From: Halorubrum sodomense
GTDB taxonomy: Archaea > Halobacteriota > Halobacteria > Halobacteriales > Haloferacaceae
DNA: 64,000 bases
Direction: 5' to 3'
NCBI RefSeq assembly: GCF_900111935.1
Contig: NZ_FOYN01000001.1
Location: 434,001 to 498,000, forward strand
Shown: positions 2,534-26,747 of the stretch, piece by piece
How the letters are laid out: each line of letters starts with the position of its first letter
How positions within the stretch are numbered: the first letter of the stretch is position 1
Position numbers and translations under genes: made by a program
Notes under the pieces: generated by a model
The model's input: only the letters and a program-made list of their open reading frames with translations
Database searches by the model: none
What the model was told of the DNA's origin: nothing

Positions 2534-2980
2534 ATGACCACGGTCACGCTCATCGGGACTCGACTCGCGGACGTCAGCCGCGAGTTCGTCTACGAGGGTG
2601 AATCGGGCGACTGCGAGGGGTGTCCATATCGCAGCCAGTGTCTCAACCTCTCCGAGGGGACTCGCTACCGGGTGACCGGGATCCGCGAGAACGCGCAGAC
2701 GCTCGACTGCGCGGTCCACGACGCGGGCGTCCGCGCGGTCGAGGTCGAACCCGCCTCCGTCCCCGCCAACGTCCCGTCGGAGCGCGCGTACGCGGGAAGT
2801 AAGGTGTCGCTCGCCGGCCCCTGCCCGCACACCGAGTGCCCGAGCCACGGCTACTGCGTCCCCGACGGCGCCGACTTCGACGAGGAGCGCGTCATCGATC
2901 AGGTGCTCGGCGACCCGCCCCACGAGACGTGCGCGCTCGACCGGGACCTGACGCTCGTGGAGTTTCGCGCGGAGGAGTGA
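2534..2980 (+). CDS. UPF0179 family cysteine-rich protein
   Basis: A 148-residue archaeal protein of unknown function, belonging to UPF0179. Eight cysteines (27, 30, 36, 59, 97, 102, 108, 133) fall in motifs such as CEGCPYRSQC and CPHTECPSHGYC. They suggest a metal site or iron-sulfur cluster, but this is inferred. The start ATG at 2534 gives the conserved MTTVTLIG beginning; the reading frame stays open upstream but that part looks non-coding. It is divergent from tmcA and convergent with the nucleoside phosphorylase. Confidence 0.88.
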   Translation: MTTVTLIGTRLADVSREFVYEGESGDCEGCPYRSQCLNLSEGTRYRVTGIRENAQTLDCAVHDAGVRAVEVEPASVPANVPSERAYAGSKVSLAGPCPHTECPSHGYCVPDGADFDEERVIDQVLGDPPHETCALDRDLTLVEFRAEE

Positions 2981-3008
2981 GCGCCCGGCGGTCGCGGGTT
3001 TTCGACCG

Positions 3009-3734
3009 TTACAGCGACGCGATGGCGTTCAGCGTGATCCGGATCGCGCGCTCGACGTTGTCCTTCGCCTTCGCCGGCAGCTCGTCGTCGGAGTCCGCGC
3101 CCTTCTGCGTTCCCGCGACGAGGTTGCCGTCGACGGTGCAGATGGCGCCGGCGGCCAGCCCCTTCCGGCGCGCGAGCGCGAAGACGGTCGCGGCCTCCAT
3201 CTCGACCGCGAGCAGGTTCGCGTCGTTCCAGTCGTCGACCGACTCCTCGTCTTCGTTGTAGAACGCGTCGTCCGAGACGATCGGGCCGACGTGGATCTCT
3301 TCGCCGTTGTCCTCGGCCGCCCCGACGAGTCCGGTGAGCACGTCGTAGTCCGGCACCGCGGGATAGTTCGCGGACTCGTATCGCTTGCTCGTCCCCTCCT
3401 CTTTGGCCGCGCCGGTCGCGACGACCATGTCGCCGACCTCCATCTCCGACTGGAGCGCGCCGCAGGTGCCGCACCGGACGAACGTCTCGACGCCGACCCG
3501 CGAGAGCTCCTCGACCGCGATGGCCGCCGACGGACAGCCGATCCCGGTCGAGCAGATCGTGAGGTCGACCCCCTCGTAGCTCGCGTTGACGACCTTGTAC
3601 TCGCGGTTCTGCGCGACGACCTCGCTGTCGTCGCACAGGTCCGCGATCCGGTCGACGCGCCCCGGATCGCCCGGGATGACCGCGATTTCGTGGACGTCGC
3701 CCTCCTCGACCAGCAGGTGCGGCTGTTTCGCCAT
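3009..3734 (-). CDS. Nucleoside phosphorylase (uridine/purine phosphorylase family)
   Basis: Cytosolic enzyme of the PNP/UDP family, which splits nucleosides with phosphate to give a free base and ribose-1-phosphate. The 241-residue protein has the phosphate-binding loop GDPGR at 22-26, the family segment STGIGCPSAAIAVEEL near 62-77, and the substrate/ribose motif VEMEAATVFALA near 177-188. The start at 3734 (MAKQPHLL) is preferred over the upstream in-frame codon at 3761 because the family begins there. Substrate preference, uridine or purine nucleoside, cannot be fixed from sequence. The accessory island begins about 110 bases upstream of its start. Confidence 0.9.
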   Translation of the reverse strand: MAKQPHLLVEEGDVHEIAVIPGDPGRVDRIADLCDDSEVVAQNREYKVVNASYEGVDLTICSTGIGCPSAAIAVEELSRVGVETFVRCGTCGALQSEMEVGDMVVATGAAKEEGTSKRYESANYPAVPDYDVLTGLVGAAEDNGEEIHVGPIVSDDAFYNEDEESVDDWNDANLLAVEMEAATVFALARRKGLAAGAICTVDGNLVAGTQKGADSDDELPAKAKDNVERAIRITLNAIASL

Positions 3735-4064: not shown

Positions 4065-5113
4065 TCAGTGTGTTATCTGCGTCACCATCGGCGAGTGCTC
4101 GTACTTACCAGTCAACGCGACCTGAACGAGCAAGTCGACGGCCCGCCAGATAGAGTACTCGCCTCTCGGCACGGGGCGAGCATCGAGGACGAGTGGAACA
4201 GCGTTACCGACCAATGGACTGTAGCCCACTGGTAGGCGTACTCGTCGGTGTTCTCCTTCGTTCCGATGATCTCGTCCTCGTGGCCCGTACGGTCGCCCGT
4301 GAAGGGGTCAGCTTCGGTAATGTCGATCGCGACGATGCCTGCGCGAAAGAACTCCTCCGTCTCTGCGACTTTGCCGATGAGTTGCCGGATCGCTCGTCGA
4401 TACATCGCTCGAACCTCCGGTATCGGGAGGTCACGTAGGTGGTCGCGGTGAGCATGTCCGGGTGGTGTCCGCTCCCGCGTTGACTCGTAGCTGAAACTCC
4501 GAGCACCCTCGTTGGCAGCCAAGTTCTCACGGAGCCCGAGATAGGTCTGTAACCCCCAGTAGGCGTTCTCGTGAATCTCACTCCCGTTACCACGGTCTAG
4601 CGAGAGCGCCGGGAAGACAACGCGGCTGACCTGTTCTATAATCGTCTCTGCCCGGCCCAAGATGCGTTGCTCGTCCGGTGCTGAATCCTCGACGGCGGTG
4701 TCCCGGTAACAGAGCTTCTGCTCAGGGTCGCGTGGAACCGAGATATCTGTATTCTAGGCTTCAATGAAAAGAGTCCGGGCAGTTGTCTCCACCGTCTCGC
4801 GAAGGTCGGCGGTGAACCGGGTGTTCCAACTGCGCCACAGCGTCGATTGATCTGGAACCGTCTCTAACCCCAACTGATCGCATACGACTGGCGCGTTTCT
4901 CAGATAATCAACGAGGGACGTTTGGTGCTCCCAGCCGTGGAGTTCCTTCAGTACAAACATCCGAAAGAGTGTGTCCACCTCGTAGCGGGTTGAGCCCTCG
5001 TAGCGGTCGTGGACATTGAATAGGAAGTACGCCATAGGAAGTGAACAGGTGAGCTGCTCAACCGAGTCGTGACTCTTATGACCGGAACCACGTCTCCGAA
5101 ACCGTCCGAACAT
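4065..5113 (-). pseudogene. Degenerate DDE-type IS transposase
   Basis: Three coding pieces on one strand form one haloarchaeal transposase. The first (5113 down to 4754, starting MFGRFRRRGSGHKSH) ends at an in-frame TAG. The same frame continues past it (NTDISVPRDPEQKLCY..., then FRAGIVAIDITEADPFTG). A single missing G after a Trp codon near 4210 shifts the frame, after which VGNAVPLVLDARPV resumes the family sequence before it decays and stops at 4065. The C-terminal third, expected to hold the last catalytic residue, is absent. The AIDIT segment probably carries the first catalytic Asp. The IS family was not identified with confidence. Confidence 0.75.
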
Positions 5114-5443
5114 CCGATTCTACTCCGGCAAGCGATCTCCGATCATACAACGGCGACGTATCGTAAACTGGCCAGTTGGCGTACGGTCGTCGCGCGATGT
5201 ATCGAAAAACGGCTCGCCGAGACTCAAGAGTTGGAGCCATCAACAGACGCTGGATAGGTCACGCTCAAGAACGCATTCACATCCCTAGATACGCCGACGT
5301 ACGGACTACAGAACTCTGTAAGTGCTCTGTACGAGACCCAAACATAGTTTTCCACGGAGCGCCTCGTCTGGTTTGTATCGACCAACTACCTCAACAGCCT
5401 GCCACAGTCCGGGTGAAAGAGTCCGCTGAGAGCGCTCTTTCCT
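5114..5443. other. Non-coding scar between transposase remnant and ModE gene
   Basis: About 330 bases with no convincing gene. Short open frames exist on both strands but show no haloarchaeal codon bias and no recognisable motif. It probably holds decayed IS sequence and the 3' end region of the regulator gene. Confidence 0.4.
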
Positions 5444-21523: not shown

Positions 21524-21781
21524 ATGGAACCCGAAGAAGCGGTCCGCCAGCTCGAGTACACCATCGACGTCTCGCTCGACGAAATCGGTCAGCGCGCCGC
21601 CGCGGCCTACCGGCCCACCTTCGAGCGCGTGGCCGAGCGCGCGGACGGGACCGCGGTGTACGACCTCGCGGGCGAGCTCTCACAGGAGGTCGTCGACGGC
21701 TCCCGTCCCTCCCCGGCGGAGGCGAACGCGGTCGCCGAGCGCGTGCTCGACGACTGGGCGTACACCGACGGCGGGGAGTAA
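21524..21781 (+). CDS. Small conserved haloarchaeal protein
   Basis: 85 residues, all-helical and acidic (MEPEEAVRQLEYTIDVSLDE...). No known motif is recognised. A TATA-like TTTTAA lies about 27-31 bases upstream of the ATG, giving a leaderless start. Codon use matches the genome. The AT-rich DUF1102 locus begins just after it. Confidence 0.65.
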   Translation: MEPEEAVRQLEYTIDVSLDEIGQRAAAAYRPTFERVAERADGTAVYDLAGELSQEVVDGSRPSPAEANAVAERVLDDWAYTDGGE

Positions 21782-21835: not shown

Positions 21836-22411
21836 TTACGTCCCGGACTTGACCACGATGGTGTCAATTTCTCCCGTAAGTTCCTGAGTGTCAATATCGT
21901 CCACAACCACGTCAAGCCCGATGCTCACTGATTCACCAGAATCAATTTGCGGGTAACCTAGATTCTCGTCGGGGTCTGTCTGTCTCGGCGCAAACTCATT
22001 ATCTAGGTTCTCAAACCTATTTTCCAGATCCGGGCAAGTAAGTGCGTTTCCGTCGCTGCTGCGGAATAGGTTTATAATCCGGTTGTCCCCACTACTGAGC
22101 GGACCGGTCACGCGGGCTGTAATCATAATATCATCCTCAGTCCCGGAGTTACCGATCTCGAAAATGTCGTTCAATAGGGTACTACTATCCTTATTAACTC
22201 CCGTTCCTCCATTTCCATTACCGTTGAGATCAATTTTCAGCTTCCCGCCCTCGGTCGTCGCGTACGGTGACGTGGGTTCCAGACGGAGGTACGCATTCTT
22301 GTCCGTAACCACGTTAACGCTCACACCGCGTGACGTTTGCGTCTGCGTGAATGCGCCAGTACCCGTTGCGGCTGCCCCGCCGGCAGCGAGCGATCCAAGT
22401 CCGACGACGAA
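21836..22411 (-). pseudogene. DUF1102 exported protein, 5'-truncated copy
   Basis: Reading leftward from 22411, the frame gives FVVGLGSLAAGG, AAATGTGAFTQTQTSRGVSV and then a DUF1102 body ending SGT. This matches the signal peptide and mature start of the intact paralogue (22730-23524), but the ATG and the MERRK start are gone: upstream of Phe the sequence passes into Glu-Leu-Tyr and a stop. The only start left in frame (GTG near 22324) would lack the signal peptide, giving 162 residues. The gene is AT-rich compared with its neighbours. It was probably inactivated by the deletion that joined it to the fragment at 22415. Confidence 0.75.
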
Positions 22412-22414
22412 TTC

Positions 22415-22650
22415 GAGGTATTACGCGGGCGTGAGATCTCTTGGAGCCTCTACTACCTCGGGCTCGCAGTCCTCGCAGGCCTCGTCCAGCTCGTGGTCGC
22501 GGTCGAGGTGCCTCTCTTCGCCGCGCTCGACAGGACCGCAGTCGCCGTCTTCGTCGTGACCGCGTTCGGCGTCTCCGCCGCGCTCCACTATTACTACGGT
22601 GAGCGCGCTCGCTTGGAGAACTTGGAGAAGCCGCCCGAACTACGGGAAAA
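22415..22650 (+). pseudogene. DUF7344 membrane regulator, C-terminal fragment
   Basis: From the junction, the plus strand reads EVLRGREISWSLYYLGLAVL, two hydrophobic helices, then GERARLENLEKPPELREKG. This parallels the last 75 residues of the intact protein at 23975-24562 (EVLRSKEIPWSLYYVGLA ... GNTAKPPELRRRE). The winged-helix N-terminal half, the promoter and the start codon are absent. With the fragment at 21836 it forms a collapsed copy of the divergent cassette; the joint lies in GAATTC at 22409-22414. Confidence 0.75.
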
Positions 22651-22729
22651 GGGAGTGACCGCAGTGGCTCGCGACCGTCTCGAATCAGATCTATCTCTAA
22701 ATAGACATTTCTTATCGTTTTATAACTCT

Positions 22730-23524
22730 CTAGATGCTCGTCGCCTGATCAAGAGTCGTCGGACCCTGCTCGCTGTACGCTTCAACGGCGAGGAACTGTC
22801 CGGAGAAGATGTTATTGGCCTTATCAGGTCCGTCAAGCGTGTAGAATTCGCTGTTCACGACAACACGCACGATGACGGCAATGCTCTCCCCCGGACCCAG
22901 TTCGATGTGCCCGGTCTTGCTGTCGTCGGCGAGAGTGTTGTAGTTGTTACTGTAGTTGGTAGTGACCCTACTGCGTGCCTGAACGTTGCCGGACGGATCG
23001 TCGAAGTTCGAGCCGTTGAAATTAGGCGGAGTGTCCCGATCAATGAGCGCCACGCTGCCACCCGACGACTGCGGGTCGACGAAGTCGGCGGTGGCTGCGA
23101 TGAACTGTACGTCGATCCCTGCCGGAACTTCGATTGTCCCGTCCGAAGCGAACGTATTGTTCGTAGCGGAGCTGGTGTACACTGGGTTTCGCAGGGGGTT
23201 GTTGACCTCGATGTACAGCGTTTCAGTGGTCTGGTTTTTCAGCGTGTAAGCCGGGCGAGCCGCCGTGACACCGTCAGTGTTGACACCTTTTCCGCCGTTG
23301 TGATCACTGGCGAAGTCGAGTCTGATCTGCCCGTTGGTATTAGTCGTTTCGACGAACTCAGAGTCTTTGTTCGGGATGATACCGAGGTATGCCGCCCCGT
23401 CTCCCGCGACATCGACCGCCATACCACGCTCTGCTTGGATGGTATCCACCGCGCCAGTACCCATTGCGGCTGCCCCGCCGGCAGCGAGCGATCCGAGTCC
23501 GACAACGAACTTGCGTCGTTCCAT
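22730..23524 (-). CDS. DUF1102 family exported protein
   Basis: 264 residues with signal MERRKFVVGLGSLAAGGAAA (two Arg, hydrophobic core). The mature protein begins near QAERGMAVDVAGDGAAYLGI, the DUF1102 signature, and is rich in Asn, Thr, Ser and Gly, as expected for a beta-sandwich surface or cell-envelope protein. The start at 23524 is preferred over the codon four residues upstream because MERRKF begins the signal. It is divergent from the DUF7344 gene across about 450 bases. The biological role is unknown. Confidence 0.82.
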   Translation of the reverse strand: MERRKFVVGLGSLAAGGAAAMGTGAVDTIQAERGMAVDVAGDGAAYLGIIPNKDSEFVETTNTNGQIRLDFASDHNGGKGVNTDGVTAARPAYTLKNQTTETLYIEVNNPLRNPVYTSSATNNTFASDGTIEVPAGIDVQFIAATADFVDPQSSGGSVALIDRDTPPNFNGSNFDDPSGNVQARSRVTTNYSNNYNTLADDSKTGHIELGPGESIAVIVRVVVNSEFYTLDGPDKANNIFSGQFLAVEAYSEQGPTTLDQATSI

Positions 23525-23974
23525 ATCGTATCTCACCTGTGTTCGGGCACCCCCGCAGTCCGGACGTCCGGGCCGGGAGTGCTCGAATAACCCATACGAG
23601 GGGTGATACTTCGTTATGATATTCTCGACATGTCCGCGTGCTATCCTCGTTGCGTGACGTGCGCGGCTCGTTGCGGAGCAGACACTCCTCGCTAACTGTG
23701 TCGGGATGTCCCTGAATGCGCGTTAAACAGCGCCTAATACGCGTTAGAAGGCTACTATAGCTATCAGCAGTATCCTGAACGACACACCGAAAGTCCGTGG
23801 GGGCTCCGGCTGGCCGGCGTCGGACCGACGATCACTTCCTGATAATATATGAAAAATTATGTGTTAAGCTAAACAATCCTCCCTATTTATGACATATTAC
23901 CGCACACGCTACAAGCGAAATCCGCCGGTCCGAGGAAGGGGTTCCGCCGGCGCGAGACGAAGGTGCTCAGATCG
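23525..23974. other. Divergent regulatory spacer of the DUF1102/DUF7344 cassette
   Basis: 450 bases without a supported gene. AT-rich stretches (about 23700-23760 and 23840-23890, including tatatgaaaaattatgtg) could hold divergent promoters. The equivalent spacer is missing from the collapsed upstream copy. Confidence 0.45.
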
Positions 23975-24562
23975 ATGGGATCTACGACTACGAGGACGAA
24001 CGAACCGAGTCGAACCGGAGGTGAACTGTCCGAAGACGAGATCTTCGAAGTGCTGTCGAACAGGCGGCGCCGCTTCGTCATTCACGCGCTCAAGCGCGCG
24101 GACGAGCCGGTCGATGTCTCCGAGCTCTCCACGCACGTCACCGCGTGGGAACGCGGTATCGACCCGGTGGACGTTCAGTACGAGGACCGCCGGAACGTGT
24201 ACAGCACGCTCCAACGCACGCACCTGCCGAAGCTGGAAGAGAAGAACGTGGTGACGGTCCACGAGGAGGAGAACCTCGTCGAACCGACGCCCGAACTCGA
24301 GGAGCTCGACATCTACGTCGAGGTCCTCCGGAGCAAGGAGATCCCGTGGAGCCTCTACTACGTCGGGCTCGCGGGCCTCACCGCCTCGCTCCTGCTCGCC
24401 GTCGCCGCGGGAACGCCGGGGTTCGCCGGCTTCGAGGCGATCGACGTGGGAGTGTTCACGGCTACCGTCTTCGGGATCTCCTCGGTCGCGCACCACGTCG
24501 TCGGCCGGCGAACGCGCTTGGGAAACACGGCGAAACCGCCCGAGCTCCGGCGCCGAGAATGA
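23975..24562 (+). CDS. DUF7344 winged-helix protein with two membrane helices
   Basis: 195 residues. The N-terminal region (about 18-100) is the DUF7344 winged-helix domain: LSEDEIFEVLSNRRRRFVIH, ELSTHVTAWERGIDP, RRNVYSTLQRTHLPKLEE. The C-terminal part has two hydrophobic helices (about 127-145 and 150-172) after the conserved SKEIPWSLYYVGLA. It may act as a membrane-tethered transcription regulator of the divergent DUF1102 gene; this is inferred from arrangement. The ATG at 23975 is preferred to the GTG four codons upstream. Its end overlaps the next start (ATGA). Confidence 0.8.
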   Translation: MGSTTTRTNEPSRTGGELSEDEIFEVLSNRRRRFVIHALKRADEPVDVSELSTHVTAWERGIDPVDVQYEDRRNVYSTLQRTHLPKLEEKNVVTVHEEENLVEPTPELEELDIYVEVLRSKEIPWSLYYVGLAGLTASLLLAVAAGTPGFAGFEAIDVGVFTATVFGISSVAHHVVGRRTRLGNTAKPPELRRRE

Positions 24563-25476
24563 ATACCGCGACCCGAACGCCGCCGGCTCGGGCGCCGTCG
24601 GCCCGCGTGAGACCCCTCCGCGCGCTGAGCATCGTACTCGCGTTCACGGCGGCGCTCGGGCTGATCTTCGGCACCGCCGGATTCACCGCGATGGAGGCCC
24701 AACGCGGGCTCGCCGTCAACGTGACGAACGACGCGAGCGCGTACCTGGGCTACGTACCGCTCACCGACGAAGTCCACGACGGGGAACCGACGGCCGTCGT
24801 CGAGTACCGCAACCAGTTCGGCACCGCTCTCGACGAGTTCGACGTCGCCGTCTCGATAGCGGACCCCGGGTCGACCGAAGTCGCGATCGAGTCCGTCGAC
24901 TCGCCCTCGTCGCTCGACGAGGGAACCGCCGCCGCGGTCAACGTCACGCTGCGCTGCCCGGAGAGAGAGCCCGTTTCCCTCCTGTTCGAGGCCGACGGGA
25001 GCGGCGGCGGCGTCAGCGTCTCGCTTGACCGCGTCCACACCGTGACCTGCGTGCCGAAGGGCCCGACTGTGACGGGGATCAGATTCGACGACGCGGCGAA
25101 CGGCCGAGCGCTGGTCGACGGTCGACACGGCGAGGTCACCGCGAACGTGTGGGTCGCTGAGACCCCGCCGGTCGAGGAGGCGGAGGACCTCACGGAGGTG
25201 AGTTTCGACGGAGCGACCCCGTTCGATACGTCGACCAAGATCCGCCGTCAAGTCAACACCGTCCCCTCGTCGACGGTCGGCGGTAACTGGAAGATCGTCG
25301 CCGTCGAGTTCCCCGATCGGAACCTCACCTACCTCCATCCCGAGTGGAACGAAGGAGCGTACGACACCCCCAAGGCGGGCGGCGGCGTCGCGTACGACGG
25401 GACGGTCGACGAGGCGTTCCTGCTGAACGCCTCCGTCGATGGCGGCGAGGTCGTCGAGGCCGGGGAGGAGGACTGA
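24559..25476 (+). CDS. DUF1102-related exported protein, co-transcribed with the DUF7344 gene
   Basis: 305 residues. After an Arg-rich start comes a hydrophobic signal helix (LSIVLAFTAALGLIFGTAGF, about 24-43), then MEAQRGLAVNVTNDASAYLG, which matches the mature start of the DUF1102 proteins next door. The rest is a beta-rich acidic body. The ATG overlaps the stop of the DUF7344 gene, so the two form an operon. This links the regulator to a DUF1102-type export product. The function is unknown. Confidence 0.75.
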   Translation: MNTATRTPPARAPSARVRPLRALSIVLAFTAALGLIFGTAGFTAMEAQRGLAVNVTNDASAYLGYVPLTDEVHDGEPTAVVEYRNQFGTALDEFDVAVSIADPGSTEVAIESVDSPSSLDEGTAAAVNVTLRCPEREPVSLLFEADGSGGGVSVSLDRVHTVTCVPKGPTVTGIRFDDAANGRALVDGRHGEVTANVWVAETPPVEEAEDLTEVSFDGATPFDTSTKIRRQVNTVPSSTVGGNWKIVAVEFPDRNLTYLHPEWNEGAYDTPKAGGGVAYDGTVDEAFLLNASVDGGEVVEAGEED

Positions 25477-25496: not shown

Positions 25497-26747
25497 TTAC
25501 AGCTTCACCTGCTCGCCCGTCCCGGGCGCGCTCGCGTCGAACCCGTCCGCGCGCAGATCTTCCGCGAACGCCTCGCAGCGGTCGCCGTGGTTCACCAGCA
25601 CGCGCGCTCCGCGATACGACTCCAGGAACGACTCCAACCCCTCGCGGTCGGCGTGCGCGGAGAAGTCGTACGAGTCGACCCGCGCGCTCACCGGCCGAAC
25701 GCGTCCGTTCAGCTCCAACTGCCCGCGCTCCTGAAGCTCGCGGCCCGGCGTTCCCTCCACCTGGTACCCCGTGAGCGTCACGAGGTTCGTCGGGTTCGTC
25801 CGGATCTCCGGGAGGTAGGTGTGGACCGGACCGCCGGCGAGCATCCCGGAAGTCGTGACGATCAGGGCGTTCTCGCCCGCGATCCGCTCGCGCCGTCCGT
25901 CGCGGCCCGTGACGACCCGGGCCCGGCCGACCGCCTCGTCGAACGCGTCCGCGTCGCGCAGGAACGAGGGATACTGCCGGAGCATCTCGGTCACCTCGAC
26001 GCCCATCCCGTCGACGTACGGCGTGAGGTCGTTCGCGGCCGCGACGAGGAGCATTTCCTGCGTCCGACCGATGGCGAACGCGGGCGCGACGACGGTGCCG
26101 CCCTCCCAGATCGTCCGCTCGACGCGCTCGGCCCACGCCGACTCCACCGCGGCGCGGTCCTCGTGGGTCACGTCCGCGTAGGTGGACTCGCAGACGACGA
26201 CGTCGGCGTCGGGGCGCGCGGTCGTCCCCGCAACCAACCGCTGGTCGTCGGTGTGGAAGTCGCCGGTGTACAGCAGGCGCGTCTCGCCGTCGTCGACGAG
26301 GACGTGCGCGGAGCCCGGGATGTGGCCGGCCGAGAACAGCGTCACCTCGTACCCCCCGTCGTCGATCCCGCCGGCGACCGCGAAGGGTTCCTCGTAACCG
26401 TGCCGCCGCTCCACCTCGCCCAGCCGAGCGACGTGTTCCGCGCCGAACGGACACAGCGGGCTGTTGCCGTGGAGCTTCAGCGTGTCCTCGGCGAGCGTCC
26501 GCGCGAGCTCGCCCGTCGGCGGCGTCCAGTGGACCGGCGGTCGCCGGTCGCCCTTCAGCAGCGCGGGGACGGCGCCGACGTGGTCGAGGTGCCCGTGCGA
26601 GACCACGACCGCGTCTGGCTCCGGGTCCCGAACCGGGTACTGCGGCGGGTCGGCGGTCTTGAGTCCGTAGTCTAGGAGGAGGGTCTCGTCGACGAGGAGG
26701 GCGCTCCGACCGACCTCGCGGGCGCCGCCGAGGAGCTCCAGTTCCAT
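25497..26747 (-). CDS. Metallo-beta-lactamase/beta-CASP family nuclease
   Basis: 416 residues. The MBL zinc motif VVVSHGHLDHVG lies at 47-58 and the later metal histidine in GHIPGSAHVL. The beta-CASP segment follows (TYADVTHEDR ... VVAPAFAIGRTQEMLLV ... VTTSGMLAGGPVHTYLP), with SAHADREGLESFL and LVNHGDRCEAFAEDL at the end. These are features of archaeal CPSF-like RNA exo/endonucleases. It lacks the KH domains of the large aCPSF1, so it is closer to the short aCPSF2-like group. RNA turnover or 3' processing is the likely role. Confidence 0.87.
   Translation of the reverse strand: MELELLGGAREVGRSALLVDETLLLDYGLKTADPPQYPVRDPEPDAVVVSHGHLDHVGAVPALLKGDRRPPVHWTPPTGELARTLAEDTLKLHGNSPLCPFGAEHVARLGEVERRHGYEEPFAVAGGIDDGGYEVTLFSAGHIPGSAHVLVDDGETRLLYTGDFHTDDQRLVAGTTARPDADVVVCESTYADVTHEDRAAVESAWAERVERTIWEGGTVVAPAFAIGRTQEMLLVAAANDLTPYVDGMGVEVTEMLRQYPSFLRDADAFDEAVGRARVVTGRDGRRERIAGENALIVTTSGMLAGGPVHTYLPEIRTNPTNLVTLTGYQVEGTPGRELQERGQLELNGRVRPVSARVDSYDFSAHADREGLESFLESYRGARVLVNHGDRCEAFAEDLRADGFDASAPGTGEQVKL

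Follow-up and report, generated by a model that had tools for sequence, protein, structure and literature searches.

In the genome of Halorubrum sodomense, a DUF1102 gene that has no ATG meets a DUF7344 gene that has no winged helix at the sequence GAATTC, beside an intact pair of genes of the same two families. How this arrangement arose is the question addressed here. The window analysed is a stretch of 64,000 nucleotides. A sequence-only reading of it had described the left feature as the collapsed copy of a duplicated divergent cassette, or possibly as a switchable storage cassette. We conclude that the left feature is very probably a recently dead second pilin cassette, and that its remnant is probably without function. 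As such it would be an ordinary but clean pseudogene, in which a single lesion shuts down both a surface-filament gene and the presumed regulator of that gene.

Organization of the locus

The positions of the GAATTC and of the intact DUF1102 and DUF7344 genes given in the sequence-only reading were confirmed (Table 1). Its description of the two truncated genes was likewise borne out by the Pfam search, the alignment and the start-codon scan.

Table 1. Features of the pilin island in the window
Feature	Position	Strand	Description
Conserved 85-aa gene	21524-21781	+	Left edge of the variable pilin island
Left DUF1102 (pilin) remnant	21836-22414	-	Body complete, signal peptide mostly kept; PF06510 match
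59-bp signal-peptide block	22353-22411	-	Matches 23452-23510 of the intact pilin at 56/59 positions, direct orientation (blastn)
Deletion junction GAATTC	22409-22414	none	DUF1102 homology up to GAATT, DUF7344 homology from TCGAGG
DUF7344 C-terminal remnant	22412-22652	+	Predicted membrane part of two helices; no winged helix; frameshift close to the 3′ end
Intact right DUF1102-like pilin	22730-23524	-	Leader ACACAGGTGAGATACGAT-ATG; twin-arginine signal MERRKF
Divergent intergenic region	23525-23974	none	Both promoters of the intact cassette; left counterpart deleted
Intact DUF7344	23975-24562	+	Winged helix and predicted membrane part; PF24035 86.9 bits, residues 24-103
Third gene of right cassette	24559-25476	+	Exported protein, DUF1102-like start (AxRGxxVNVxxDxxAYLG)
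RNase J-like gene	25497-26747	-	Right edge of the variable island; synteny across genus loci

A working cassette would carry one or more pilin genes on one strand and DUF7344, a membrane-bound winged-helix protein for which we infer a regulatory role, on the other, with one divergent promoter region. The 85-aa gene was single-copy in 50 of the 52 genus genomes. The N-terminus MERRKF of the intact right pilin is a twin-arginine-type signal. The orthologues of the intact right DUF7344 in the genus reached up to 88%. The third gene of the right cassette matched both DUF1102 copies in blastp (E = 3e-7 and 3e-6); it has orthologues in the genus and no left counterpart. A further divergent cluster of DUF7344 and multiple DUF1102 genes, with a relative of the third gene, was present in the same genome (G000:C8:544496-548021; L002, L006).

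Identity of the exported protein

The left DUF1102 passed the PF06510 cut-off in the Pfam profile search (37.3 bits against 22.2). A profile of this protein and 17 relatives matched PDB entry 9p0a over the whole length (E = 5e-32), and the fold search names this entry as the Tafi pilus subunit of Natrinema sp. J7-2. The intact right DUF1102 falls below the PF06510 cut-off, yet alone it matched the same solved pilin (E = 1e-9 over the first 107 residues). The predicted structure of the left protein was of low confidence (mean pLDDT 61.5), so the fold search with Foldseek serves only to back the sequence match. It also returned 9p0a as the best hit, with archaeal bundling pili and Sulfolobus threads among the best. 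The matches to Pyrobaculum bundling pili (7ueg), Sulfolobus threads (7pnb) and bacterial TasA fibres (8aur) were weak; their E-values ranged from 0.04 to 1.6, none of them significant, which indicates resemblance and not membership. All three are filaments built from beta-sandwich subunits (PMC9715654 for Sulfolobus threads and TasA fibres).

A pilin function of the DUF1102 proteins is thus well supported by similarity. The left copy differs from the Natrinema subunit in having neither a start nor the twin-arginine motif, and the mature sequences have diverged strongly. The literature searched contained no paper on DUF1102 or DUF7344 by name, and none was found on 9p0a or the Tafi pilus.

The left pilin remnant

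The minus-strand product of the left DUF1102 gene begins EFVVGLGSLAAGGAAATGTGAFTQ... and runs uninterrupted to its normal stop. The gene has no ATG, no Shine-Dalgarno sequence or other ribosome-binding site, and neither arginine of the twin-arginine motif; the right copy has both the start codon and the exported twin-arginine signal MxRRxF. Only TAC CTC stands between the junction and an in-frame TAA, which places a stop two codons upstream of the junction. Reading inward, no codon could serve as a start before a GTG at 22324, which lies 30 codons inside and has no Shine-Dalgarno sequence. With the TAA upstream and the first start so far in, no start restores the signal peptide. An upstream alternative, which would have contradicted the loss of the 5′ end, was sought and is not present.

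Signal blocks resembling the left one occur in other species with 80–88% identity over 66 nt. The left block was closest to type A leaders (80–88%), and type B pilins were less alike (70–73%). Between the left and right cassettes the DNA matches scored 94 and 64 bits, against a maximum of 27 bits in 60 base shuffles, and the two DUF1102 bodies showed only distant resemblance. A search of 170 genomes from the family turned up no relative of the left body above about 50%, and the genome itself held no further copy at that level; none was confirmed in the genome collection and viral contigs. The G+C content is low from 21836 to 22729, with 53% in the left pilin and 42% in the gap behind the fragment, compared with 69% for the window. 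Across the genus, the third-position G+C of pilin bodies ranged from 0.46 to 0.93.

The left regulator fragment

The plus-strand product out of the same GAATTC reads EFEVLRGREISWSLYYLGLAV..., and by sequence comparison it is a true relative of DUF7344. It aligned with residues 116–194 of the intact right protein at about 50–51% identity, which answers the objection that the fragment might be unrelated to the intact gene. It corresponds to the C-terminal part of a gene of this family and contains none of the Pfam domain PF24035, which is the winged helix present at residues 24–103 of the right gene. The C-terminal membrane part is retained. Its amino acid identity was 88% to the intact left-position genes of species G022 and G048, 86% to that of G010, 75–78% to the second-position genes of these three species, and 50% to its own neighbour.

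Relatives of the fragment end in ...ELRERE followed by a stop. Near the 3′ end of the fragment an extra base puts this ancestral stop out of frame, and translation would read on in the wrong frame; the sequence-only reading had missed this frameshift. At two residues that are invariant in the compared relatives the fragment has substitutions (P to S, G to E). The overall dN/dS against the left orthologues was 0.08–0.11, indicating that the sequence was under selection during most of its history and died late. Its synonymous divergence (0.53–0.79) was roughly double the value for the RNase J gene between the same species (0.27–0.29), so the fragment may not be a strict orthologue but an imported gene or a paralogue of greater age.

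The deletion junction

In relatives the pilin leaders read ...GAA[C/T]TTGCG... and the regulators ...TACATCGAGG..., and the window reads GAATTCGAGG. The deletion ends therefore have at most one base in common. With intact cassettes as the yardstick, at least about 0.8 kb was lost: pilin codons 1–4 and their leader, an intergenic region of 450 bp and roughly the first 115 codons of the regulator.

We propose that in the ancestor an old left cassette lay beside the present right one. A deletion spanning about 0.8 kb or more, whose ends had no real homology, would have taken the pilin start and leader, both promoters and the DNA-binding half of the regulator. It would have silenced the left pilin and the left regulator simultaneously, after which the regulator fragment began to decay. 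The deletion was presumably a single event. The earlier statement that one deletion explains everything is nearly right; the one-base frameshift came later, and two cassettes may have been joined. The latter possibility arises because a type A-like leader now stands beside a type B regulator fragment. The middle cassettes of G010, G022 and G048 are chimaeric, combining a type A leader with a regulator whose C-terminus is type B-like, so the mismatch is compatible with one cut cassette as well as with two joined ones.

The island across the genus

The island site was compared across the genus as the interval between the 85-aa gene and the RNase J-like gene. The two genes directly adjoin, with no cassette between them, in seven species. 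Most of the other species have one cassette, G022, G048 and G027 have two, and G010 has three. The DUF7344 proteins form two main types according to position, and the left fragment grouped with the left-position type. An intact left-position DUF7344 stands at the same place in the sister species G010, G022 and G048; the corresponding gene in the window has lost required parts, as expected of a pseudogene made by deletion. This supports the proposed loss of both 5′ ends and the common promoter region of a divergent cassette.

A tree of the two flanking genes grouped the window species with G048, G010, G025 and G022 (support 0.82), and placed G047 and G042 one step outside (support 0.97). Within this seven-species clade, the left-type regulator was intact in three species, frameshifted in G042, deleted in its core in the window and absent from G047 and G025, whose islands are empty; the array of this clade thus ranges from no cassette to three. 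These states make the window an intermediate stage as a tandem array loses one of its cassettes, and the sister species supply the states before and after. Since close relatives keep the intact version, the locus would be a recent gene loss caught halfway. The prediction that relatives carry an intact left cassette held for the regulator; an exact intact counterpart of the left pilin half was sought among relatives and not found.

A recent duplication of the right cassette was considered and rejected, as the regulator parts share only 50% identity and fall with different paralogues. The idea of a duplicated cassette accordingly stands for old paralogues and fails for a copy of the right cassette (50%, against 86–88% to the sister left copies). 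By sequence, the left remnant is the relic of an old, second cassette of a tandem array.

Likely replacement of pilin bodies behind a conserved leader

The setting of this pseudogene is less ordinary. In a small island, predicted haloarchaeal pilins change wholesale behind a conserved leader and the regulator follows species descent. Among the pilin genes adjoining a regulator, the last 30 bases before the ATG were 82–91% identical and the first 20 residues 84%, and the bodies averaged 28%. The pilin DNA of G048 and G010 was 97–100% identical from -46 to +73 and then fell abruptly to about 40%. At L058 3779-4480 and L068 6519-7163, from two close relatives, the similarity is lost just past the signal peptide, and promoter and leader are near-identical. 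The most similar bodies often came from distant species. Between G022 and G028, for example, the body was 86% alike, the RNase J protein 79% and the regulator 71%. Over 231 species pairs, body identity was not correlated with flanking-gene identity (rho 0.09, P 0.19), whereas regulator identity did track it (rho 0.35); the pairs are non-independent, so the P values are a rough guide.

Because the leader and signal are conserved and the mature pilin is abruptly different and does not track species relationship, it is likely that mature pilins have been laterally replaced behind a constant leader across the genus. Gene conversion homogenising the signal block was rejected as superfluous, since the leader is conserved across species; at four-fold sites the signal region (0.52–0.57) was not more alike than the flanking genes (0.64–0.69). 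That the leader and signal act as a recombination landing pad for the exchange of whole mature pilins between species, and that in the window the promoterless left pilin could be moved behind the expressed leader, would be a long shot. The pattern makes the exchange of archaeal surface filaments directly testable, and such filaments are a likely target of viruses and of cell–cell contact.

Surface genes of haloarchaea can sit in flexible genomic islands. The locus agrees with these in that the same chromosomal site has different gene content, or none, in related species. It differs in being small, with one to three regulator–pilin cassettes, and in having its replacement breakpoints at the signal peptide. 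Silent-cassette antigenic variation is exemplified by pilS of Neisseria and vlsE of Borrelia, with which the locus shares a constant 5′ part, a variable body and a promoterless copy near an expressed one. Here, however, there is one copy, with no long homology at both ends and no evidence of switching; a search of the own genome for several silent donors did not find them.

Alternative explanations

Three observations run counter to the preferred reading: the left pilin body keeps an entirely open frame, the leader and the regulator fragment point to different cassette types, and the synonymous divergence of the fragment is high relative to the RNase J gene. The second also speaks for a deletion that spanned cassettes, joining the left pilin of one to the regulator fragment of the next, with a larger loss that possibly included whole genes or a whole cassette. 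Relatives, in which cassettes can number three and hold several pilins, would have offered the material. Both types nevertheless occur within the single chimaeric cassettes of G010, G022 and G048, whose regulators are 75–78% identical to the fragment, and one small deletion is simpler; we consider the spanning deletion rather unlikely. It is also conceivable that the left pilin, now 315 bp downstream of its right counterpart and in the same orientation, is read as a second gene in the operon of the right pilin and is possibly still of use. The regulator promoter that once separated the two is gone, and multi-pilin operons are common in relatives. Still, there is no start for an exported form; the twin-arginine motif is deleted, and the internal GTG without a Shine-Dalgarno sequence would yield an unexported protein, which makes this operon very doubtful.

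Less probable again is silent storage, in which the promoterless left pilin would recombine with the expressed right pilin through the 59-bp block and switch the surface filament. The block is in direct orientation and in the same reading frame, 56 of its 59 bases match, and the body is intact. Across species, mature pilins are swapped exactly behind it (G048/G010, -46 to +73), and body identity ignores species distance (rho 0.09) where that of the regulator follows it (rho 0.35). Against this stand a single candidate donor, a homology that is short and no higher than conserved leaders elsewhere predict, and the absence of left-body relatives above about 50% in the 170 family genomes. Moreover, if the direct repeats recombined, the intact pilin would be lost and not exchanged, and lateral transfer accounts for the replacements at species level. 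The switchable cassette of the sequence-only reading, with one donor and ~59 bp of homology, thus found no direct support. An assembly error joining two unrelated stretches is the least probable explanation. A chimaeric junction with almost no homology, present in one genome only, would fit it in principle; yet the junction is internal to a contig of 960 kb, in a genome that is 99.8% complete and with the neighbours in correct gene order, and the independent frameshift and substitutions are consistent with biological decay. The recently dead second cassette remains the preferred explanation.

Other decayed cassettes in the genus

Decayed or truncated copies were found in three other species of the genus, with frameshifts in G042, the C-terminal part only in G003 and an internal deletion in G008. 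In G003, the C-terminal part of DUF7344 (L064 3240-3515, oriented coordinates) lies opposite an exported-type reading frame. An identical collapse was rejected there, as this antisense frame, beside a real regulator fragment, has no detectable DUF1102 similarity; the truncated regulator alone is claimed. The DUF7344 remnant of G008 (L073 549-953, oriented coordinates), with no pilin beside it, looks internally deleted, its first residues being fused to the last 31. At L049, two pilin genes (2659-3402 and 4511-5266) have in common a leader of 133 bp at 89% identity, and a regulator is missing from the interval; this pair may be a later stage of cassette collapse. In G022, a plus-strand exported protein with no detectable DUF1102 similarity replaces the left pilins (L057 698-1744), and G048 apparently has the same replacement.
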